Of a DNA stretch of 54,253 bases, positions 1 through 43,738 are shown in pieces. How positions within the stretch are numbered: the first letter of the stretch is position 1; each line of letters opens with the position of its first letter. Position numbers and translations under genes: made by a program. Location of the stretch: the NCBI GenBank assembly GCA_017448795.1, contig JAFSKV010000065.1, positions 1-54,253 of the forward strand, given 5' to 3'. The notes below the pieces were generated by a model. The model saw only the letters and a list, made by a program, of their open reading frames with translations. It made no database searches and was not told the DNA's origin. The DNA comes from Synergistaceae bacterium. Its GTDB lineage: Bacteria > Synergistota > Synergistia > Synergistales > Aminobacteriaceae.

Positions 1-303
1 AGGCTGGTCTTGCACCTCGTGGACTTCCGTCATGGCCTGCTGAAGAATGACCGCGAGCTTCAGGAATGGATACGCGGCGAGGGGAAGAATGTATTTGTTG
101 TGTTCACGAAGGGCGACAAGATTTCGCGGGGGAAGTGGCGGTCAACAAGAGACGGATATATCAGGGACGGGCTGTACTCGCATGATGTCCCTGTGGTTAC
201 GTCGGCGGAAAGCAAAGAGGGAGTCGGCAAGCTGGGGGAGTTTCTCGTGAAGTTTTTGAAGGACTGTGCTACAATGGCGGAAATTTCAGCAGAAAGGATG
301 TAG
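1..303 (+). CDS. engB: Ribosome biogenesis GTP-binding protein EngB (YsxC/YihA), 3' part
   Basis: The reading frame is open from the first base of the window, so the start lies upstream and only about 100 C-terminal residues are visible. The visible part begins in the switch II region (VDFRHGLLKND), continues to the G4 motif as TKGDK where most GTPases have TKxD, and ends with a G5-like TSAES. This order and spacing fit the EngB family of TRAFAC GTPases, which help mature the large ribosomal subunit. The P-loop is outside the window. A promoter-like sequence begins exactly at its stop codon. Confidence 0.85.
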   Translation, partial: RLVLHLVDFRHGLLKNDRELQEWIRGEGKNVFVVFTKGDKISRGKWRSTRDGYIRDGLYSHDVPVVTSAESKEGVGKLGEFLVKFLKDCATMAEISAERM

Positions 304-329
304 ACAGATTGCTTTTCGGCGGCTATAAT
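301..329 (+). promoter_or_regulatory. Candidate sigma-70 promoter
   Basis: TAGACA at 301-306 and TATAAT at 324-329 are separated by 17 bases. The -35 matches the consensus at five of six positions and the -10 is perfect. Transcription would begin near 336, just after engB, and would reach a terminator-like hairpin at 390. Confidence 0.55.
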
Positions 330-335
330 CGAACC

Positions 336-425
336 ACGAACCACGCCATAACTATGCGCTGAAATCCACAGCCCTGACTAGAAGATTCCCGCTCTCATGT
401 CGTGATGATGTGAGGGCGTTTTTGT
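336..425 (+). ncRNA. Candidate short transcript or attenuated leader
   Basis: A good promoter (301-329) and an intrinsic terminator (390-425) enclose about 90 bases that hold no convincing reading frame. This could be a small RNA, or a leader that controls read-through into the methyltransferase gene at 447. I do not recognise a known RNA family here. The call rests only on the promoter and terminator pair. Confidence 0.3.
390..425 (+). terminator. Intrinsic terminator
   Basis: The stem CGCTCTCA (390-397) pairs with TGAGGGCG (411-418), including one G-U pair, and is followed by a run of five T. It separates engB and the short transcript from the methyltransferase gene. Confidence 0.6.
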
Positions 426-446: not shown

Positions 447-1418
447 ATGTTTAAGCGTATAAGAAGGAGGCTGATGGACAAAATTTACGGTAATAGCCCG
501 GTGCTTGGCTGTGCGTTAAGAGGTCTGTTTGCCACGCATCCGTGTAAGGCTGCTATACTGTCGCTTTACATGCTTCCTGTACGTAATGCCTTCAAGATTG
601 CGTTCACCCAAGAGCATACGTTTAGCGTCTCGAAAGAGTACTATGACGAGCTTCATAGTCTGCTCCATATCGCGAAGGCAGAAGGCCATGAGCTTATGCG
701 GACTGGTGATGAAAATGACGGAGGCTATGTCATGCTCGACGATTTGCCCGGAGGAATCGCCTACTCGTTCGGAATTGCCAGGAATGTCTCGTGGGACAGG
801 GACATGGCCTCGCGGGGCTATGATGTCTACATGTACGACCATACGATTGACAGCCTCCCCGAAGAGAACGTGCGCTTTCACTGGAGCAAGCTCGGAATTG
901 GGGACGGAAGCGGCAATGATGTGTTGTTGAAGACATTGGAGGAACTAATCGCGGTCAACGGCCATGAAGGAAAGAGCGACATGATTCTGAAGATGGATGT
1001 CGAGGGGGCAGAGTGGGGATTCCTTGAGAGCGTGAAGCCTGAGACATTGCTACGGTTCAGGCAGATATTGTTCGAGTTTCATGGTCTCATGGATCCCAAG
1101 AAATACGGCCTTAGTGTCAAGTATTCCCGTATTCTGGAGATGCTCGAAAAGGTTAACGCAAGCCATCAGCTCATTCACCTTCACCCTTGCAATTTCAGTA
1201 ATTGTGCTTCATTTGGCGGAAAAATTTTCCCTCAAACAGTCGAGGCAACGTATGTAATCCGCGACAAATACAAATTCGAACAGGATTACGACGTGGAGCT
1301 TCCGCTGGAAATTGACGCGCCGGACAGAAGAGGAGTGCCTGATATTGATTTGGGTCGATGGAACAGAGACGTTTCACATGATGCTGAGACGATAACGTCA
1401 ATCGTTAGAGTAATGTAA
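447..1418 (+). CDS. FkbM-family methyltransferase
   Basis: This is a 323-residue protein with an FkbM-like SAM-dependent methyltransferase domain in its central and C-terminal part. The clearest motif is MILKMDVEGAEWGFLESV around residue 175-195, the acidic D-V-E-G-x-E signature of FkbM enzymes. GGYVMLDD and SFGIARNVSWD near residues 90-115 fit the SAM-binding region. FkbM enzymes usually O-methylate sugars or other small substrates, but the substrate here is unknown. The ATG at 447 is preferred over the GTG at 426 because GGAGGG (435-440) lies six bases upstream. The next gene is a paralogue. Confidence 0.75.
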   Translation: MFKRIRRRLMDKIYGNSPVLGCALRGLFATHPCKAAILSLYMLPVRNAFKIAFTQEHTFSVSKEYYDELHSLLHIAKAEGHELMRTGDENDGGYVMLDDLPGGIAYSFGIARNVSWDRDMASRGYDVYMYDHTIDSLPEENVRFHWSKLGIGDGSGNDVLLKTLEELIAVNGHEGKSDMILKMDVEGAEWGFLESVKPETLLRFRQILFEFHGLMDPKKYGLSVKYSRILEMLEKVNASHQLIHLHPCNFSNCASFGGKIFPQTVEATYVIRDKYKFEQDYDVELPLEIDAPDRRGVPDIDLGRWNRDVSHDAETITSIVRVM

Positions 1419-12110: not shown

Positions 12111-12478
12111 CAATAATAGCCTTGTGCGTGGATATTGAGCATATAGGGCGGCTGTGGCTGTCTGACCCTAACGCCCTTGTGTTCAATTACGGAATGGCAT
12201 TCAGCATCCTTCAGGACATGCCGGGCCTGAGCACTGCGCTGTCGCTGCTCGCGTGCGTGATGATCGGGCTTGTGTTTGTCTTCGGGGAGCTGAACGGGGG
12301 CGAGCGACTGGGCTTCTCCATAATGCTTGGGGGTGCTGTGTCGAACTGCGCGGAGAAACTGATACTGGGTTACGTGATTGACTGGATACACCTTCCGTTC
12401 ATACCGCTGACGATTAATATTGCTGATATTGAGGTGTCATTAGGGGCGTTGATTGCGTTCGTGAATTTCTGGAGGTGA
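12095..12478 (+). CDS. lspA: Divergent, short signal peptidase II-like protein
   Basis: The protein is 127 residues, against about 160 for normal LspA, with about four membrane segments. NYGMAFSIL (residues 31-39) matches the NxGxAF box. GGAVSNCAEKLILGYVIDWI matches the GGALGNxxDRxxxGxVVD box, and NIADIEVSLGA the NxAD box. LspA removes lipoprotein signal peptides with two Asp residues. The second is kept (NIAD), but the first, in GNxxDR, is Glu here (SNCAEK). The N-terminal part is compressed. The TTG start at 12095 is uncertain. It may be a diverged LspA or an inactive relative. Confidence 0.65.
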   Translation: MLRSVTIIALCVDIEHIGRLWLSDPNALVFNYGMAFSILQDMPGLSTALSLLACVMIGLVFVFGELNGGERLGFSIMLGGAVSNCAEKLILGYVIDWIHLPFIPLTINIADIEVSLGALIAFVNFWR

Positions 12479-12515
12479 GAGACTCCCCCGCGATTCCTCA
12501 CAAGAGAGCCTCAAT

Positions 12516-12917
12516 CTACTTCATCAAGTCCGCAATCGTTATCCCGTCAAAGAACCCCTGAATCATCCCTCCGAGTTTCTTCCACATGGGAAGAGTCCGG
12601 CATTCCCCCGCACGAGGGCACGTGTTAGGCTCGCACGACACACACGCAACAGGCGCAAGCTCCTCATTCATGGCCGCAAGAACATCACTCACCCGGCAAT
12701 CCTCCGGCCTGACACTGATACGGTAGCCGCCGCCGACTCCGTGCTGTGCCTCAACTAACTTCCCCCGCGACAGCAAGGCCATGAGCCGCTCTGCGTACTT
12801 CTTTGAGACTTCCTGACGCTCCGAAAGCTCCTGAGTAGTGATATATCCCCCGCTGTCATTCTCCGCAAGGTCAACAAGAAACCTCAGCGCATACCTTCCG
12901 CGTGTCGAAATCAGCAT
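12516..12917 (-). CDS. Rrf2-family transcriptional regulator
   Basis: This 133-residue protein has the Rrf2/IscR winged helix (STRGRYALRFLVDLAEN, SERQEVSKKYAERLMALL, GVGGGYRISV). Around residues 92-108 is a cysteine cluster, CVSCEPNTCPRAGEC, like the iron-sulfur ligands of IscR or NsrR. It lies directly after metY on the same strand with no gap. It may therefore sense iron-sulfur or sulfur status and control metY, as the Rrf2 protein CymR controls cysteine genes in Bacillus. That role is inferred. Confidence 0.88.
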   Translation of the reverse strand: MLISTRGRYALRFLVDLAENDSGGYITTQELSERQEVSKKYAERLMALLSRGKLVEAQHGVGGGYRISVRPEDCRVSDVLAAMNEELAPVACVSCEPNTCPRAGECRTLPMWKKLGGMIQGFFDGITIADLMK

Positions 12918-14210
12918 TTACCCCTTCACTGCCTCGAATCCGTGCTGTAGGTCAGCAAGAATATCATCAATATGTTCCGTGCCGACTGAAAGACGAATCG
13001 TTGTCGGACGAATCCCGCATGACAGCAATTCTTCTTCACTCAGCTGTGAGTGTGTCGTTGATGCCGGGTGAATGACGAGCGATTTCACGTCAGCAACATT
13101 CGCCAGCAGCGAGAACAATTCCAGGCTCTCAGTGAACTTCTTGGCGGTCTCAGCAGTCCCCTTTATGTCGAACGTGAATATTGACCCCGCGCCGTTGGGA
13201 TAATACTTGGCGTAAAGCCCGGCCTGTTTCCCTGTCTCAAGCGACGGATGATTGACCCGCTCAACCTGCGGATGACCCTTCAGGAATGAGACGACCTTAA
13301 GCGCGTTCTCAACATGGCGCTCAACCCTAAGCGACAAAGTTTCGAGCCCCTGCAGCAGCAAGAACGAGTTGAACGGGGACTGACACGCCCCAAGGTCCCG
13401 CATGAGCGTGGTGCGCAGCTTGATGATGTACGCGAGCTTCCCCGCGGCTTCCGTGAACTTCACGCCGTGATATGACGGATTGGGCTGTGAGAGTCCGGGG
13501 AACTTGTCATTCTGAGACCAGTCGAAATTTCCGCCGTCAACCACAACTCCCCCCATGACCGTGCCATGTCCGCCGATGAATTTCGTTGCCGAATGTACCA
13601 CAATGTCCGCCCCGTACTCAATCGGCCTGCACAGGTAGGGCGTGGCAAATGTGTTGTCGATTACGAGGGGGATACCGTGTTCGTGGGCTACTTTTGCGAC
13701 TGCCTCAATGTCGACAACGTCAGAATTTGGGTTGCCGAGCGTCTCAGCGTAAAGCAGTTTCGTGCTGGGCTTGACGGCCTTGGCGAAATTCTCCGGGTCT
13801 GACGGGTCAACGAATGTAGTCGTGATTCCCTGCTCCGGGAGGGTGTTGGCGAAAAGATTGAACGTACCGCCGTAAAGGTTGGTTGACGAGACCACATGAC
13901 TCCCGGCTGTTGCTATGTTCTGGACGGCGTAAGCTATTGCCGATGATCCTGACGACGTGGCCAGCGCGCCCGCTCCCGACTCCAACGCCGCAATTCTCTT
14001 CTCGAACACATCATTTGTCGGGTTCATGAGGCGTGTATAGATGTTGCCGGGGGTTGTGAGGGCGAATCTTCCTGCCGCTGTTGCCGAGTCCTTGAAGACG
14101 TATGACGTTGTCGCGTAAATCGGCACTGCCCTTGCGTCTGTGGTGGGGTCGGCTGTTTCCTGGCCTGCGTGAAGCTGGATTGTCTCGAACTTGTACTTGC
14201 TGTTAGTCAT
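12918..14210 (-). CDS. metY: O-acetylhomoserine sulfhydrylase
   Basis: This 430-residue PLP enzyme of the Cys/Met metabolism family has TIQLHAGQE near the start, [35 protein letters not shown] and the PLP lysine in [15 protein letters not shown] near residue 210. It makes homocysteine from O-acetylhomoserine and sulfide. The ATG at 14210 has AAGGA upstream and gives the normal N-terminus. The frame stays open upstream to an ATG at 14315 with its own GAAGG, so a 35-residue longer form is possible. It is followed without a gap by an Rrf2 regulator. Confidence 0.93.
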
Positions 14211-14350
14211 TGCGCTTGTGTCCTTTCTTGTGATGTTTGCCGGGGGGATGTCAGGTGATGAAGCCGCGCTGTTCCTCCGTGAAAATATCCGCTCAAGAAG
14301 TCTGCCTATGCTCATTAGCACACCTTCTCAGTATGAAATCAGTTGCGGAA

Positions 14351-14378
14351 ATTCTACACGCTTAACTCACAAAGTCAA
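14351..14378 (-). promoter_or_regulatory. metY promoter candidate
   Basis: On the minus strand TTGACT (14373-14378) and TAGAAT (14351-14356) are 16 bases apart. Transcription would start near 14344, giving a leader of about 130 bases before the metY ATG at 14210. Confidence 0.55.
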
Positions 14379-14517
14379 GCCTCACAAATTGCCGGGACAT
14401 TGGCGGGGTCTGCGGAATATTCGTGATGACGTTCCTGCGTGCTGCTGGCCGTGCGGTGATACATGGCGGTTATTTCTTGATTATATGCAGTAATAATCAT
14501 CAATGTAAGCGTTATAA

Positions 14518-14546
14518 TTGACAAAATTTCTGCTTAAGACTAATAT
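14518..14546 (+). promoter_or_regulatory. Promoter of the ATP-grasp operon
   Basis: A perfect -35, TTGACA (14518-14523), is followed after 17 bases by TAATAT (14541-14546). The start point would be near 14553, about 25 bases before the GTG start at 14579 and just ahead of the GGGGAGG ribosome site. A TATAAT at 14513 overlaps the -35 and lacks its own -35. Confidence 0.65.
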
Positions 14547-14578
14547 TCGTCCCAAAAATTGCAGGGGAGGTTTTCGCG

Positions 14579-15904
14579 GTGAAGGTAACAGAAGAAGAGC
14601 TTTGCCGGCATTCTGACAGCGTGAACGAACAATTAGCTCGTTACGGGGTCAAGTTCGGCATCTACAGGAACGGGGAATTTCACGAGCAGTTGTTCCCATT
14701 TGACGTGATACCAAGAGTGATAGGGAGCGGGGAATTTGTGTACCTTGAGCGCGGACTTAAGCAGAGAGTCGCGGCACTTAATGCGTTTCTGAGGGACATA
14801 TATTCTGACAGGAAGATTATTGCTAACGGGGTAATCCCTGAAGAGTTCGTGTTCTCAGGAAGCGGCTACCTTGCGCAGTGTGATGGTGTCTCGCCGCCGG
14901 GAGGAGTCTATTCCCACATATCAGGCATTGACCTTGTGCAGGGCAAAAACGGAAGCTGGTACGTCCTCGAAGACAACCTGCGCATTCCGTCGGGAGCCTC
15001 ATACCCCATGGTAGCCCGCGAGCTGTGTATGAGGAGCATCCCGTCAGCATTCTCCGACAATCTCACGGAGGACAACAGGAATTACCCGGAGCTTCTGCGC
15101 AAGATGATGGACTACGTGAACACTGGCGGGCATTCCGTCATACTCACGCCGGGACGCTTCAATGCCGCATACTTCGAGCATTCGTATTTTGCCGAAAGGA
15201 CGGGGGCAAGGCTCGTAACGTGCGAGGATTTGACGGTCGAGAATGACAGGCTGTATTTCATCGATTACTCAGGCAAGAAGGAGCAGGTCGGCGCGGTCTA
15301 CCGCAGAATCTCGGACGAATATATTGACCCGGTCAGCTTCAACAGGGAGTCGCTCATCGGAGTCCCGCACATTTTCGACATCTACAGGAAGGGCAATGTC
15401 GCTCTCATCAACGCCCCAGGCAACGGCGCGGCTGACGACAAGGGGATATATTACTTCGTCCCGCGGATGGTGAAGTACTATCTCGGTGAAGAAGCTATCT
15501 TGCAGAACGCCCCGACATACCTGCCGTATTACGAGGAAGATATGAAGTATGTACTCGCGAAATTCGACAGCCTCGTGATTAAGGATGTTGCTGAAGCCGG
15601 GGGGTATGGTGTTGTTTTCGGAAGCAAGCTGTCAGCAAAAGAGAAGGCTGACTTCATGGCCATGCTTAAGGCCGAACCCAGGAGATTCATCGCGCAGGAA
15701 GTGATAGACTTCCGGGACATTGACATTTACGAGGGCGGAATTAGAGTCCCAAGAAAAGCAGACCTGCGGGCGTTCGTGCTGACGGGTGATGAGCCTGTTG
15801 TGTGGAAGAGCGGGCTGACCAGATTTTCCCGCAACCCCGACTCCTTCATCGTGAACTCATCACAGGGCGGGGGCTTCAAGGATACGTGGGTCATGAAAGA
15901 CTGA
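14579..15904 (+). CDS. Circularly permuted ATP-grasp protein (DUF404/DUF407 type)
   Basis: This 441-residue protein matches the circularly permuted ATP-grasp family. Visible motifs include SGYLAQCDGVSPPGGVYSHI, the nucleotide-binding YVLEDNLRIPSGASYP, VDVLTP-like VILTPGRFNAAYFEHSY, VGAVYRRISDEYIDP, VALINAPGNGAADDKGIYYFVP, and VIKDVAEAGGYGV. These proteins are thought to be amide or peptide ligases. It is the first gene of a three-gene set with an alpha-E protein and a transglutaminase-like protein, a neighbourhood found in many bacteria and proposed to make a peptide tag or small peptide. The GTG start follows GGGGAGG. Confidence 0.85.
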   Translation: MKVTEEELCRHSDSVNEQLARYGVKFGIYRNGEFHEQLFPFDVIPRVIGSGEFVYLERGLKQRVAALNAFLRDIYSDRKIIANGVIPEEFVFSGSGYLAQCDGVSPPGGVYSHISGIDLVQGKNGSWYVLEDNLRIPSGASYPMVARELCMRSIPSAFSDNLTEDNRNYPELLRKMMDYVNTGGHSVILTPGRFNAAYFEHSYFAERTGARLVTCEDLTVENDRLYFIDYSGKKEQVGAVYRRISDEYIDPVSFNRESLIGVPHIFDIYRKGNVALINAPGNGAADDKGIYYFVPRMVKYYLGEEAILQNAPTYLPYYEEDMKYVLAKFDSLVIKDVAEAGGYGVVFGSKLSAKEKADFMAMLKAEPRRFIAQEVIDFRDIDIYEGGIRVPRKADLRAFVLTGDEPVVWKSGLTRFSRNPDSFIVNSSQGGGFKDTWVMKD

Positions 15905-21643: not shown

Positions 21644-21688
21644 GTTGAAGGGATTTCAGGCAACAGCTAGGCCGACAGCCGATAGCCG

Positions 21689-21718
21689 ATTGTAGGCATG
21701 ATTTGTGTGATGTGTCAA
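21689..21718 (-). promoter_or_regulatory. Promoter of the surface-protein operon
   Basis: On the minus strand a perfect -35, TTGACA (21713-21718), is followed after 18 bases by TACAAT (21689-21694). The start point would be near 21682, giving a leader of about 105 bases for paralogue B and the genes behind it. I see nothing else in the remaining gap up to 21858. Confidence 0.65.
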
Positions 21719-23343: not shown

Positions 23344-23408
23344 CCGTGCTAAACTATGAAGAAATCCATGAAAGGAGTCTTGACAATGCCGGAAAAATCT
23401 GCGTACAA

Positions 23409-24380
23409 TTGCTCACAGCTCACAGCTCACCCCGTATTGTCTCCCTCGACACAGCAAAAGGCATCGCCATCATCCTCGTAGTAATCGGCCATGAATTACA
23501 GCATCGTTACGGAACGGACGGACTGCCCTTCAGGCTGATATACTCGTTCCACATGCCGCTATTCATGTTCCTGTCAGGCATGGTGTTTTCCCTCAAGCTC
23601 CGAAATTTCCCCTCACAAAGTCTCAAGCCATCACGCGAAATCCTCAAGTCAGCGCGCGGACTCCTGATACCGTTCGTGTGCTGGACTCTGGTTGCAGCCC
23701 TCATCAGGCACAGGGATAACATGGCCGGGTACTTCCTGAGAGTCGCGGAGTCCCCTGACCGCTCATTGTGGTTCCTGCTTGTGCTGTTCTGGTGCCGGGC
23801 ATTCTTCGTTCTGGTTCACCGGGTGTGCGCAAGGGCATTCAGGAATCTCACGGCCATGAAGCTGGCTGCCGTGATGGCTGTGATGTTCGTGCTGATGAGA
23901 CTACTTGCACCGGGGAACTTCATGGGGGCGGGGCTGTTCAGGGCGCATTTCCCGTATTTCGCGCTGGGTGTGTTCGCGTGGCAGTACAGGGTGAGGCTGT
24001 CAGGGTTTCTTGCTGACCTTCCCGCCGTCCTAGCGATGATTGCGCTGTTCGCCGTGATTGCCCCGTGCTGGCATCTCACAGAGCCTAATCCTTTCTCGCT
24101 GGCTCATGGCCGGGTTCTCTTCTTGATAGTGAGGAGGTTGTCGCCAATTCCGGGAATATTCCTGACGTTGTCGCTGACGAGATTCCTGGCAAGATGCGCC
24201 ACTCACGCTGCAGTGAACGCGCTGTGCATGACTGGGACGATGACGCTCGGAATATACGCCCTTCATCCGTACTTCTTGGGGATGTTCCCGCCCGTCATAG
24301 CCCCGCTGTGCGTGAGCGTGCTGCTGACTGTGGTTATAGGGAGGATACCTGTGATGAGAGTCCTTCTTCTGGGGAAATGA
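23409..24380 (+). CDS. Membrane acyltransferase (acyltransferase 3 family), 5' end out of frame with its best start
   Basis: This is a multi-spanning membrane protein of about 320 residues, probably an O-acetyltransferase for surface polysaccharide. The family signature is IVSLDTAKGIAIILVVIGHELQ near the N-terminus (catalytic-type His in IGH), then FHMPLFMFLSGMVF and about ten hydrophobic segments. The best start is the ATG at 23386, with AAAGGAG (23371-23377) eight bases ahead, but its frame ends at a TAG about 30 codons later. The body frame has only a TTG at 23409 without a ribosome site. A 7-base tandem repeat lies between them. One more repeat unit would join the ATG to the body. Confidence 0.75.
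   Translation: MLTAHSSPRIVSLDTAKGIAIILVVIGHELQHRYGTDGLPFRLIYSFHMPLFMFLSGMVFSLKLRNFPSQSLKPSREILKSARGLLIPFVCWTLVAALIRHRDNMAGYFLRVAESPDRSLWFLLVLFWCRAFFVLVHRVCARAFRNLTAMKLAAVMAVMFVLMRLLAPGNFMGAGLFRAHFPYFALGVFAWQYRVRLSGFLADLPAVLAMIALFAVIAPCWHLTEPNPFSLAHGRVLFLIVRRLSPIPGIFLTLSLTRFLARCATHAAVNALCMTGTMTLGIYALHPYFLGMFPPVIAPLCVSVLLTVVIGRIPVMRVLLLGK
23411..23430 (+). repeat. Heptanucleotide tandem repeat GCTCACA x 2.9
   Basis: GCTCACA is repeated twice and followed by GCTCAC, at the very start of the acyltransferase gene. Because seven is not a multiple of three, each unit gained or lost changes the reading frame. An increase by one unit would put the ATG at 23386 in frame with the enzyme body. Confidence 0.8.
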
Positions 24381-39143: not shown

Positions 39144-39162
39144 CACAAGGAATGAAATTCTT

Positions 39163-39197
39163 GCGGGGGATTCTTTCGGGAGTCTCCCGCTTTTCTT
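39163..39197 (+). terminator. Intrinsic terminator after ptb
   Basis: GCGGGGGA (39163-39170) pairs with TCTCCCGC (39183-39190), with one G-U pair, and a short T run follows. It separates ptb from the ankyrin genes. Confidence 0.75.
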
Positions 39198-39220
39198 TGG
39201 CCAATGAAAGGAGGGCTGAA

Positions 39221-40504
39221 ATGAAGAAACTGTTTGCCGCGCTGGCTGTTGTGATGCTTGCTTTCTGCGCAACGTCTTGGGCCGGCATTCGCGAACTCAC
39301 CCCGGAAGAAACCGCTACAGTCAATCTCTATAATGTCTTGGACAACGCTAACGTAACTCTTGAGGAAATTGTGAGATTGGTGCTTGCCGGAGCAAAAATC
39401 AACAAGCCCCTGACCCTGAACAAAATAACCCCCCTCATGAAAGCCGCCAGAAGATGCTACAGTTCCGAAGTCGTCAAGTATCTTATTGACGAGGCGCAAA
39501 GACAGTACAACGACAATAAAGGCTGGCTTGACACAATCGGCGGGGCAGTCTGGCTCGTCGACAACAACGCGCTTAATATCAGGGACGAAAACGGAATGAC
39601 AGCCCTAATGTATGCGGCAAAAGACAACTACAACGCCGAAATCACACGCGCATTCATCAGCGCAGGAGCAGGCATAAAATTTGAGGACAATGAAGGCTTC
39701 TCTGCCTTGGGACTGGCCGGGTGTTACAGCAAGAATCCCGAAATCATAAGGATACTGGCCGGGAAAGGTGCTGACGTAAACGCAAAAATCTGGTCGGGAA
39801 TATCACGGCGTTCCCTACTCATGTACGCAGTAGAGAAGAACAAGAGCCATGAAGTTATACGTGAGCTCGTCAGGGCAGGGGCTGACGTGAATTATTGGTG
39901 GCTGGATGAGTCTCCCCTCTCAATCGCGGCGGAACACTCGACTCCTGATGTCGTGGAAGTCCTGCTTGAAGCGGGGGCAAAACTCAGCGAGAACGGAGGC
40001 GGCTCAGAAATGGCATGGGCGGCTAAGAATGAGTCATACCCGGAGATATTGACGCTCCTTATTAGGCACGGAGCAAAGGCAGACGCAAGATACCCGGTAG
40101 GCAAATCGACTCCTCTTATGCACGCGGCAAGCAATCCCAACCCTGAAGCGGTGAACATACTTCTCAGGCACAAGGCCGACGTTTTCGCAAAAGACAGCGA
40201 CGGCGCAACACCGTTAATGTATTCCGTCTACAACAAGAATCCCCAGGTCATAAAGATACTCATCAAGGCAGGCTCTGACATTGAGGCTAGGACTTCTTCA
40301 GGTTACACTGCTCTGATGGCCGCGGCCAATATCGACCCTCCAAACATAGAGGCGGTCAAAGTTCTCCTTAATGCGGGGGCTGATGTCATGGCCAAAGACA
40401 GCAAGGGCAACACAGCTCTTGACCACGCCAGGAATGACAGCGTCAAGGAGCTCTTGAGGGAAGCAATGAGGCGGAGAACGTCGAAATGGTGGCCGTTCTT
40501 CTAG
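39221..40504 (+). CDS. Exported ankyrin-repeat protein 1
   Basis: This 427-residue protein has a signal peptide (MKKLFAALAVVMLAFCATSW) and about nine ankyrin repeats of 33-38 residues, such as DGATPLMYSVYNKNPQVIKILIKAGSDIEA. Ankyrin repeats bind partner proteins. Many repeats here have an extra NPE or NPQ turn, as in related periplasmic ankyrin proteins. The C-terminus is basic and ends with KWWPFF. The ATG at 39221 has AAAGGAGG. It is the first of three consecutive exported or anchored ankyrin genes. A periplasmic or surface role is likely, but the target is unknown. Confidence 0.85.
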   Translation: MKKLFAALAVVMLAFCATSWAGIRELTPEETATVNLYNVLDNANVTLEEIVRLVLAGAKINKPLTLNKITPLMKAARRCYSSEVVKYLIDEAQRQYNDNKGWLDTIGGAVWLVDNNALNIRDENGMTALMYAAKDNYNAEITRAFISAGAGIKFEDNEGFSALGLAGCYSKNPEIIRILAGKGADVNAKIWSGISRRSLLMYAVEKNKSHEVIRELVRAGADVNYWWLDESPLSIAAEHSTPDVVEVLLEAGAKLSENGGGSEMAWAAKNESYPEILTLLIRHGAKADARYPVGKSTPLMHAASNPNPEAVNILLRHKADVFAKDSDGATPLMYSVYNKNPQVIKILIKAGSDIEARTSSGYTALMAAANIDPPNIEAVKVLLNAGADVMAKDSKGNTALDHARNDSVKELLREAMRRRTSKWWPFF

Positions 40505-40526
40505 AATAAGCGAAGGAGTGAATATC

Positions 40527-41294
40527 TTGTACAGGAAAATATTTATTGCGCTGATGATTACGGCTGTTATGTCATGCTTGGCTTTTGCTGAGACTGACAC
40601 GAGGCTTATGCGCACGCTCAGGAAGCCGGACGTAACTGCTGAGGACGTGAAGAGGGTTATTGCTGACGGCGCGGACTTGAACGCTACGGACAAAGACGGC
40701 TATATCCCGATTATATACGCGGCGGGATTCCGCAGCACTGAAATCATCAGGATTGTTGCTGAGGCGGGAGCTGACATTGACGTTCAGGGTCTGCATTGGG
40801 CGCAAAAGGGAAGGACTGCACTCATGGAAACGGTCGTACGTTTCAGCGACATGGACACAATACGCCTTCTCATCAGCGAGAAGAATATCAACATGGCCGA
40901 CAATGACGGAATGACTGCTCTTATTGAGGCGGCTATACACAACAGCAAGGCTTATGTCGTGAAAGCACTGATTGACGCGGGGTCTGACGTGAAGAAATAC
41001 GGCTCAAGGGCTCTCATGGGCGCGGCCTCGTGGAACTGCAACCCGGAAACCGCAAGACTCCTCATTGAAGCAGGGGCTGACGTGAACATAAGAACTTCCG
41101 ACGGAAAAACTCCCCTCATGCTAGCGGCCTCTGCACCTTCACGCATGGTTGACCCGGAAAAAGCCGCAGACTTTATCCGCGTGCTGATTTCCGAAGGCGC
41201 GGATGTCAACGCTAAGGACAAAAACGGGGAAACAGCCCTAGATTTTGCAAATAACGAAAATATACGTAAAATTCTCCGTGATGCAATAAAGTAA
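40527..41294 (+). CDS. Exported ankyrin-repeat protein 2
   Basis: This 255-residue protein has a signal peptide (MYRKIFIALMITAVMSCLAF) and about six ankyrin repeats (DGYIPIIYAAGFRSTEIIRIV, DGMTALIEAAIHNSKAYVVKAL, DGKTPLMLAAS). It is shorter than the first gene's product and seems to be a paralogue. The TTG at 40527 is preferred to the GTG at 40518, because GAAGGAG (40512-40518) would lie directly against the latter. It starts 22 bases after the first ankyrin gene. Confidence 0.82.
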   Translation: MYRKIFIALMITAVMSCLAFAETDTRLMRTLRKPDVTAEDVKRVIADGADLNATDKDGYIPIIYAAGFRSTEIIRIVAEAGADIDVQGLHWAQKGRTALMETVVRFSDMDTIRLLISEKNINMADNDGMTALIEAAIHNSKAYVVKALIDAGSDVKKYGSRALMGAASWNCNPETARLLIEAGADVNIRTSDGKTPLMLAASAPSRMVDPEKAADFIRVLISEGADVNAKDKNGETALDFANNENIRKILRDAIK

Positions 41295-41319
41295 CACAAG
41301 AAAGGACTCATCACAAACA

Positions 41320-42225
41320 ATGCGAAAGTTACTCAGATGGATTATTCTCCTGCTTGTCATTGCCCTTGCCGTCATGATCTGGCAGAAAGCCCCACAGTCA
41401 GCAATATCAATGACAATAGCACTCCTCATAGCCGCAGCGTCAATGACAATCCTGCACAAGACACCAGACGCAGAATTATTGTCAGCCGCAAAGAAACGTG
41501 ATGCATCCATCGAGCTTATACAGGATCTCATCAATGCGGGGGCGAACCTCAAATCCCGCGACAAGGACGGAAGGACACCGCTGATCCTCGCCGCCTCGCG
41601 CTCGCCGTCAATAGAAATCGTCAGCCTCCTCATCGACTCAGGCTCAGACCTTGAAGCGCGCGACAATGACGGAAATACCCCCCTCATCACAGCGGCCATG
41701 CTCAACCCGGAACCGCCCGTCATGAACGTCCTCGTGAAATCCGGCGCGAACGTCAACGCAAAGAATGACAAGGGAAATACCCCCCTCATGATGGCGGCCA
41801 TGTTCAGCGCAAACCCTGAGTGTGTCAGAATGCTCATAGACAACGGCGCGAACGCTAGGACCCGCAACGTGGACGGACTCACAGCACTGCACAGGGCATC
41901 AAGGCCGGAATACGTCGCCATGCTCATTGCTTCAGGCGCGGACGTGAATGCCGCTGACACCATGGGGCACACGCCACTGATGAGCGCGGCTTTTGACGAC
42001 AATCCTGAAGTCCTCTCGGCTATCCTCAACTCAGGCGCGAACGTCAACGCACACGACAGGGAAGGCAAGACTGCCCTCATGTACGCGGCGGAAAAGAATC
42101 TGCCTGAGAACGTGAAGGCACTGCTGAGTTACGGAGCTGACAGAGCCGCGAAGAATATTGACGGGAAAACCGCGGCGGGTTTAGCGCAGACTGAGGCCGT
42201 GAAGAATATCATCCTCAGCAGGTAA
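41320..42225 (+). CDS. Membrane-anchored ankyrin-repeat protein 3
   Basis: This 301-residue protein has two adjacent hydrophobic segments at the N-terminus (residues 6-20 and 28-45) and no obvious cleavage site, so it is probably anchored. About seven ankyrin repeats follow, including DGRTPLILAASRSPSIEIVSLL, KGNTPLMMAAMFSANPECVRML and MGHTPLMSAAFDDNPEVLSAIL. It lies 25 bases behind the second ankyrin gene, and the three look like an operon. A weak terminator follows. Confidence 0.83.
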   Translation: MRKLLRWIILLLVIALAVMIWQKAPQSAISMTIALLIAAASMTILHKTPDAELLSAAKKRDASIELIQDLINAGANLKSRDKDGRTPLILAASRSPSIEIVSLLIDSGSDLEARDNDGNTPLITAAMLNPEPPVMNVLVKSGANVNAKNDKGNTPLMMAAMFSANPECVRMLIDNGANARTRNVDGLTALHRASRPEYVAMLIASGADVNAADTMGHTPLMSAAFDDNPEVLSAILNSGANVNAHDREGKTALMYAAEKNLPENVKALLSYGADRAAKNIDGKTAAGLAQTEAVKNIILSR

Positions 42226-42285: not shown

Positions 42286-42294
42286 TGGTATAAT
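42286..42294 (+). promoter_or_regulatory. Extended -10 promoter of the sugar transferase gene
   Basis: TGGTATAAT is a strong extended -10 (TATAAT at 42289-42294) about 50 bases before the ATG at 42344. No matching -35 is seen. Confidence 0.55.
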
Positions 42295-42343
42295 CTCCCA
42301 AATTCCACGCACATAACGCAGGAAGGAGCTTGACACAAGAATC

Positions 42344-43738
42344 ATGGCCGCGTATAATCGCACATCGCACATCGCACATCGCCTCTCTTATGCGCTCTTC
42401 ACACTCTTACAGATCATCATTGACATAGCACTCTTCCAGGCCTGCATAGCGTTCACAGTTCCGTTAGAAACAAGAATATTCATGACCGGGACAATGTCAG
42501 CCTGCTTCATGTTCGGGAAACTTTACGGCTTCCGCAACCTCTCACTCTGGGACGAAACCGGGGCAGTCCTCCGCTCGTCAGTCCTCGTGATTCTCGTCAG
42601 CATGCTCTATCTTTACGCGGTGAAGTCAGCCGTCTCATCCCTCGCTGTCATGGCCGGGACAATGGCATTCACTCTCCTCACTCTGGCGGCAAGATACCTA
42701 GTGAGGGTGATATTCTTCCGGGCGGGATGGCTCGTGAAGTCGGTGATAATTCTGGGGGCTGGCGAGGCAGGGAAAACTTTTGCCGACAAGATAACCGCTT
42801 CACCCTTCACGATACGGCGGGTGCTGTGCTTCCTTGATGATGACGGGGCGAAACTTGGCGCGGAAATCTCAGGTGTTCACGTAGCAGGGAGGATTGCTGA
42901 CTTTGCGGACGTTCAGGCGGAACTTCACGCGGACGAGGCGGTGATAGCCATCCCCACAGCGTCGAGGCAGGAGCTGGCCGGGATACTGAGCGCGGTTGAG
43001 GACAGAGTCAGGCGCGTGCTGTATATCCCGGATATGTACATGCTCACGACATCAGCCGCTGAGATTCGCACGATTGACGGTATGCCGGTGATCTCGTCGT
43101 CTCAAGGCCTGCTGAATCCCGTCAACATAGCAGTGAAGACCGTGATCGACTACATAGGGGCGGCGGCTGCGCTGGCGGTGTTCTCGCCGTTCATGGTGTG
43201 GGCGGCGTGGAAGATTTGGCGCGAGGACGGAAGGCCGATATTCTTTGTGCAGGACAGAATCGGCTGGAAGGGTAAGCACTTCATGACGTACAAGTTCCGC
43301 TCGATGCACAAGAACGCTGACGAAATCACCCGGAAACTTTTCAGTGACCCGGAAATTTTCGCGTCCTACAAGCAGGGCAACAAGATGAAGGATGACCCAA
43401 GACTCACGAAAATAGGAGCGTTCATCCGTAAGACCAGCATAGACGAGCTTCCCCAGCTCCTTAACGTCCTCAAGGGGGAAATGAGCCTTGTAGGTCCGAG
43501 ACCGCTTCCACAGCTTGACGTTGATTTGCTGTACAGTGACGAGCATGTTCTGAGGAAGGTTTACGCCGCAAAGCCCGGACTCACCGGGATATGGCAGGTG
43601 TCAGGACGGAGCGACCTCGACGCTGATTTCCGCCGCAAGATAAACTGCTACTACGTCCACAACTGGAGCGTCTGGCTCGACCTCGCAATCCTCATCAAGA
43701 CTCCTCTGGCCGTAATCACGCACAAAGGCGCATACTGA
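42344..43738 (+). CDS. Polyprenyl-phosphate sugar phosphotransferase (WbaP/WcaJ type)
   Basis: This 464-residue enzyme starts exopolysaccharide or O-antigen units by moving a sugar phosphate to undecaprenyl phosphate. It has four N-terminal membrane segments, a CoA-binding-like middle domain ([17 protein letters not shown]) and a C-terminal sugar transferase domain: [34 protein letters not shown] and [17 protein letters not shown]. The AAGGAG lies 15 bases from the ATG, rather far. Codons 6-13 contain a CGCACAT heptanucleotide repeat. The gene is in frame as sequenced. Confidence 0.92.
42359..42381 (+). repeat. Heptanucleotide tandem repeat CGCACAT x 3.3
   Basis: Three perfect CGCACAT units and a partial fourth lie within the first 13 codons of the sugar transferase gene and encode the stretch RTSHIAHR. 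Gain or loss of one unit would shift the frame and stop translation early. A similar repeat with a different sequence lies at the start of the acyltransferase gene at 23411. Confidence 0.85.

Follow-up and report, generated by a model that had tools for sequence, protein, structure and literature searches.

The stretch of DNA analysed here, called the window in the following, comprises the 54,253 nucleotides of contig JAFSKV010000065.1 from a Synergistaceae bacterium (assembly GCA_017448795.1). It carries a gene for a WbaP/WcaJ-type sugar-phosphate transferase, the product of which (464 aa) matches the Pfam families Bac_transf (2e-60) and CoA_binding_3 (1e-12). A preliminary description had reported a repeat of CGCACAT in 3.3 copies at 42359-42381 within this gene and had regarded the gene as being in frame (ON). 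The repeat is real and represents the same array read in another register, but its ends were set slightly short, as it covers 42357-42382 as a perfect ATCGCAC repeat of 3.7 units (TRF score 52), the top-scoring period-7 array of the window; the ON state stands, with the 464-codon open reading frame from ATG 42344 running through the array up to 43738. The array spans codons 5-13, and its 7-bp unit, which is not a multiple of three, thus lies inside the translated 5' region. The gap between Shine-Dalgarno sequence (SD) and ATG is about 15 nt and therewith above the usual optimum, a spacing that array-free orthologues share: in L059/L268 the SD AAAGGAG is followed after about 14 nt by ATGGCC at the same place, which supports the start codon of the transferase. 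A perfect sigma70 promoter, P2, overlaps the ATG, and its -10 leads straight into the array, while a second -10 further upstream, P1, probably drives the SD-bearing mRNA. Directly upstream of the transferase, three ankyrin-repeat genes lie in a row (39152-42225), and the end of similar ankyrin-like sequence also precedes the transferase homologues L286 and L290. The features are compiled in Table 1.

Table 1. Features of the repeat modules in the window, and arrays of a second heptamer class at other loci
Feature	Position	Strand	Basis
Transferase module
P1 -10, TGgTATAAT, upstream promoter	42289..42294	+	sequence; TANAAT at a like position in 51/69 modules
SD AGGAAGGAG	42320..42328	+	sequence; SD kept in all modules and array-free orthologues
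P2, TTGACA-N17-TATAAT, 12/12 sigma70 consensus, -10 abuts array	42330..42358	+	sequence; array linkage across genus
Start codon ATG	42344..42346	+	ORF; position shared with array-free orthologues
Tandem array ATCGCAC x3.7, in frame (ON)	42357..42382	+	repeat finding, frame analysis, shuffles
WbaP/WcaJ-type sugar-phosphate transferase, 464 aa	42344..43738	+	ORF and Pfam
Second module
Probable P1 -10, TAAACT, weak match	23350..23355	+	sequence; position as in other modules
SD AAAGGAG	23371..23377	+	sequence
P2, TTGACA-N18-TACAAT	23380..23409	+	promoter scan
Start ATG, out of frame with gene (OFF), locus L161	23386..23388	+	frame analysis
Array GCTCACA x2.9	23411..23430	+	repeat finding
Acyl_transf_3 gene after array, open in a single frame	23431..24380	+	ORF and family search
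Third module
P2-like TAGACA-N17-TATAAT, then CGAACCA x2.3, in leader	301..345	+	promoter and frame analysis
FkbM-type methyltransferase gene downstream	447..1418	+	family search
Further sites
TTGACA-N18-TACAAT directly followed by imperfect CGGCTAT x2.7; no SD, no coupled leader; secreted-protein gene downstream	21671..21718	-	promoter scan
TAGTGAT/TAGTGGC-class arrays, source genome	L172:15451, L183:15758, L229:12134, L233:10915, L234:7982		
TAGGGGT/CCCTAAT-class arrays, G026	L204:4940, L218:17353, L221:19354		

Besides the transferase module, the window contains two further modules. Among 40 shuffled windows, perfect runs of period 7 reached at most 17 bp (mean 14.8) compared to 26 bp at 42357 and 20 bp at 23411, which confirms the earlier claim that two such heptamers are hard to explain by chance. 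Both sites have an identical anatomy of SD, P2, and array, and the mechanism suggested to be shared by them is therefore supported on the level of sequence. Read from its SD-served ATG, the acyltransferase gene behind the second array is OFF in the assembly. The open frame of the leader of the third module terminates at the start of the FkbM-type gene; this leader appears to be OFF in the assembly as well, which is less sure because its start codon is TTG. A terminator-like hairpin (in 346-446) separates the FkbM-type gene from its CGAACCA array. The site on the reverse strand indicates that array and P2 can exist without the translational part, and a similar site is present at G031:C12:161288.

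All data derive from assemblies, and the source genome was surveyed by searches and in sampled stretches. Used as query, the promoter/array stretch of the transferase matched several other loci of the source genome and then many genomes of its genus, a rumen/gut genus of Synergistaceae, with rumen Synergistaceae and 'uncultured Fretibacterium' as the nearest named records, and a 21-mer of the ATCGCAC heptamer was absent from all 145 genomes searched of other Synergistota. We also discarded a viral link, as the single match to a viral contig did not contain the module. The same anatomy with differing units is common to 69 modules of the genus and, as read from these sequences, the module is composed of a putative promoter P1, the SD AAAGGAG, a start codon, a near-perfect sigma70 promoter P2 (TTGACA-17/18-TATAAT), and a tandem array against the -10 of the latter. 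The units have 7 bp, some 5 bp and rarely 4 or 8 bp, with no length divisible by three, and their sequences vary by locus. About half of the matches to TTGACA-N16-18-TANAAT in the source genome run into tandem units (CAGCTCT, CGCCCAA, CGGCTGT, GGCTCAC, and others), and the tRNA-type promoters found by the same scan have no tandem units after the -10. Eight related genomes gave a like pattern, and eight outgroup genomes one clear case among the matches listed. In unselected stretches of the source genome and G026, 11 of the 22 period-7 arrays abut a promoter scoring at least 9/12, compared to 1/46 for arrays of periods 6 and 8-13 and to 1.0-1.5% of random positions. Seven of the remaining arrays belong to a second heptamer class with no promoter at its edge, namely TAGTGAT/TAGTGGC in the source genome and TAGGGGT/CCCTAAT in G026. 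The combination of SD and P2, searched with a repeat-free query, is present in 25 of the 43 genomes of the genus vs. one of 145 other Synergistota, and the backward-read control gave one match in total. All of 40 fresh SD-P2 sites, picked blind to repeats, abut tandem units, of which 33 arrays were found by script (21 with 7-bp, 11 with 5-bp, and one with 8-bp units) and seven short ones, with about two or more units, by eye; again no unit length is divisible by three. The original observation was thus correct but understated, with the embedded P2, the leader version of the module described below, the spread throughout the genus, and the OFF gene at the second repeat having been missed.

Among the transferase homologues, P2 and array occur together. 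All nine array-bearing copies have P2, eight of them with scores of at least 10/12 and L274/L036 with a perfect -10 but a poorly matching -35 (P2 of L272 and L274 was read from the sequence, because the best score of the script fell on another spot), whereas array-free copies reach 7-9 at best, which is background level for such a search. Aligned base for base with the window, the array-free L268 retains SD and ATG but reads TTATCA where the window has TTGACA, and AAAAAT in place of TATAAT. It follows that point mutations created or eroded P2 in parallel with the array; a cassette insertion at the transferase is ruled out by the collinearity of the array-free orthologues. Two other copies, L278 and L288, resemble modules that have decayed. 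The unit number per homologue ranges from 2.7 to 8.7, and the unit sequence differs, too. The -10 of P2 shares the frame of the leader ATG in 45 modules but not in 13 others, and since P2 is present whatever the reading frame, it is not a by-product of the codons. For P1, a TANAAT, often as TGnTATAAT, is found 25-60 nt upstream of the P2 -35 in 51 of the 69 modules, and due to this position a P1 transcript would include SD and start codon.

Two designs of the module can be distinguished. In the fused design, to which the transferase belongs, one frame behind the array is open for at least 600 nt, and in the leader design a gene with its own ribosome-binding site (RBS) begins 41-118 nt past the array. 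In 28 of 30 leaders one frame stops between -6 and +14 nt of the gene start, vs. 9.9 ± 2.4 for shuffled leaders, most commonly with an offset of +4, i.e., ATGA; with wider limits the numbers are 29/30 vs. 13.0 in shuffled leaders and 15.5 at ordinary genes, and an independent set of leaders gave 14/14 vs. 6.1 ± 1.7. The remaining two frames commonly stop right after the array. This pattern as a whole matches the expectation for translational coupling in one of three frames. For the RBSs of the leader-design genes a lower accessibility is moreover predicted than for those of ordinary genes (0.32 vs. 0.43), a modest difference that is supportive only. Regarding the phase, 16 of 55 modules start in the productive frame (8/26 fused, 8/29 leader), as do 14 of 27 in the test set (8/13 fused, 6/14 leader), giving 30/82 overall and thus about the one third expected of freely wandering lengths, although modules sharing a unit family are homologous and the ON/OFF counts are not fully independent, and array lengths from short-read assemblies can err, especially near contig ends. 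Long intact ORFs are kept in the out-of-frame copies.

The genes downstream of the modules predominantly encode surface-making products, i.e., glycosyltransferases, acyltransferases, and allied enzymes. In the source genome these are three GT2, two GT4, one GT8, and a Core-2/I-branching enzyme, two transferases and two Acyl_transf_3 proteins, furthermore FkbM and other methyltransferases, a sugar-transfer ATP-grasp protein, a nitroreductase, and secreted or unassigned proteins. Sixty ordinary genes used for comparison had no glycosyltransferase among the 25 families listed, a comparison in which weaker matches may be missed. Judged from the sampled loci, the targets show a clear bias towards glycan genes. 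The roughly one third in-frame and two thirds out-of-frame copies and the mostly glycan-related downstream genes also speak for the earlier proposal of ON/OFF switching by frameshift, as far as sequences can. It had further been claimed that a frameshift in the transferase would block the first step of polysaccharide synthesis. A changed unit number would indeed shift the frame, but the block need not be total, because two further transferase paralogues are encoded on contig C72. These lie in tandem (12334-13713 and 13791-15140, locus L154), the first one (C72:12309, 2.7 units) being out of frame (OFF) and the second one located just behind.

It is highly probable that the transferase array is a frameshift phase variation (contingency) locus within a surface-glycan system that extends over the whole genus. 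The mRNA made from P1 would carry a start codon behind a strong SD, ribosomes would enter the array within about 4-10 codons, and gain or loss of a 7-bp (at some loci 5-bp) unit would shift the reading frame. In fused copies the gene would then be reached in one of three frames, with the others stopping shortly past the array, and in leader copies the single frame open to the start of the next gene would couple translation at one third of the array lengths. As the targets are mostly glycan enzymes, a population with mixed surface structures would result. We infer that in living cells slipped-strand mispairing alters the length of the arrays, with expression following. Short arrays of two to three units may switch rarely, and the OFF state of leader-design genes may be leaky, because these genes carry their own RBS. 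If this holds true, the many standardised glycan-gene switches of this genus would clearly exemplify bet-hedging at the surface of gut and rumen bacteria, with a bearing on the evasion of phages and of the immune system, and would account for target genes being truncated or overlooked by gene callers. Two contigs of the source genome are broken within ATCGCAC arrays (C41:1 and the end of C49) and possibly represent the halves of a single module; such breaks were set aside as evidence for variation, as repeats break assemblies anyway.

For this frameshift scheme P2 is not needed. In fused genes a P2 transcript would start inside the array without a start codon, and it is therefore unlikely that P2 serves their expression; possible roles are promotion of slippage, a pause site, or a second transcript in leader-design genes. 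We only tentatively consider, and rather doubt, that P2 acts as a mutator promoter, at which opening and scrunching by RNA polymerase would melt the first unit or two and raise slippage, so that initiation would set the switching rate of each locus. Since array and consensus promoter come and go together among homologues, it can be directly tested here whether initiation of transcription drives repeat instability.

A working P2 is, on the other hand, the core of a different explanation, according to which the array forms the 5' end of the transcript and the unit number tunes expression like a rheostat, with the frame being incidental. Its near-consensus sequence, the -10 lying against the array in every module and kept in any frame, the arrays that adjoin a promoter without SD (as at 21718 in the window), and the hmw1A gene of Haemophilus influenzae, where a heptamer overlaps the -10 of its P2 and more units lead to less expression (PMC8262952), would all fit. 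However, the P2 transcript of fused genes would lack SD and start codon, and neither the in-frame start, nor the frame-specific opening of genes, nor the leader stops at gene starts, nor the absence of unit lengths divisible by three would be predicted, which makes this explanation improbable. The perfect P2 had at first suggested that the repeat belongs to a promoter or 5'UTR, a view that the frame evidence overturned. Attenuation, in which in-frame translation of the leader prevents a terminator hairpin ahead of the gene, corresponds to the mechanism of Streptococcus gallolyticus pil1 (PMC3894217), and a terminator-like hairpin between array and gene is found in three of 30 leader modules, including the one at 330 of the window, vs. 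about 1% of shuffles. The third module may therefore work like pil1, judged by this analogy, but as 27 of the 30 leader modules have no hairpin and fused genes have no leader gap, attenuation would apply to a minority of copies at most and is improbable as the general principle. That the modules are merely a dispersed repeat or spreading promoter element, with the arrays being relics of copying, is hardly credible at all: the ATCGCAC modules within the source genome share 90-97% of their sequence over about 60 bp, which means that some were copied between loci, and the TAGTGAT/TAGGGGT class is not tied to promoters, but this would explain neither the relation of frame and gene start, the intact out-of-frame ORFs, the glycan bias, and the differing units at unrelated genes, nor the base-for-base alignment of the transferase module with its array-free orthologue, which shows that the module was not inserted into the transferase.

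That simple repeats, pentamers and heptamers among them, can cause phase variation by frameshift is well established, as in H. influenzae (PMC2651432), and repeats are known to exert control through a leader at pil1. No description of phase variation in Synergistota or of the present combination was found in the limited open-access literature. Many tandem heptamers near gene starts of one genome are also known as the TAACTGA direct repeats of Beggiatoaceae and Cyanobacteria (PMC4679880), but there one fixed heptamer without known role is located just before the start codons, whereas the Synergistaceae arrays have many sequences, lie inside ORFs, and are tied to a promoter. Similar, too, are the contingency loci of H. 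influenzae with tetranucleotide, pentamer or heptamer repeats (PMC2651432), where units that are not multiples of three lie close to the 5' end of genes for LPS or surface structures and shift the frame as well; the Synergistaceae differ in units (7 or 5 bp) that vary by locus, in one shared module of SD, P2, and array, and in the leader version. In hmw1A/hmw2A of the same species a heptamer array overlaps the -10 of a promoter also called P2, with a second promoter adjacent (PMC8262952). The array abuts the -10 in the Synergistaceae modules, but instead of being untranslated and tuning the level it lies in the ORF, with P1 upstream, and the frame matters. The pil1 locus has GCAGA repeats in a leader peptide with RBS and ATG, the unit number of which alters the frame, the end of the leader, and the downstream gene (PMC3894217). 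In our leader class, too, the repeats sit in a leader equipped with SD and start codon, which does not apply to the fused transferase. While pil1 acts on a terminator and no embedded promoter is described for it in the part consulted, the Synergistaceae modules contain such a promoter and most of their leaders end at the start codon of the gene without a terminator, which points to translational coupling. Leader ORFs that would couple in one frame of three are thus an additional, translational design beside frameshift within the gene, promoter change, and attenuation.
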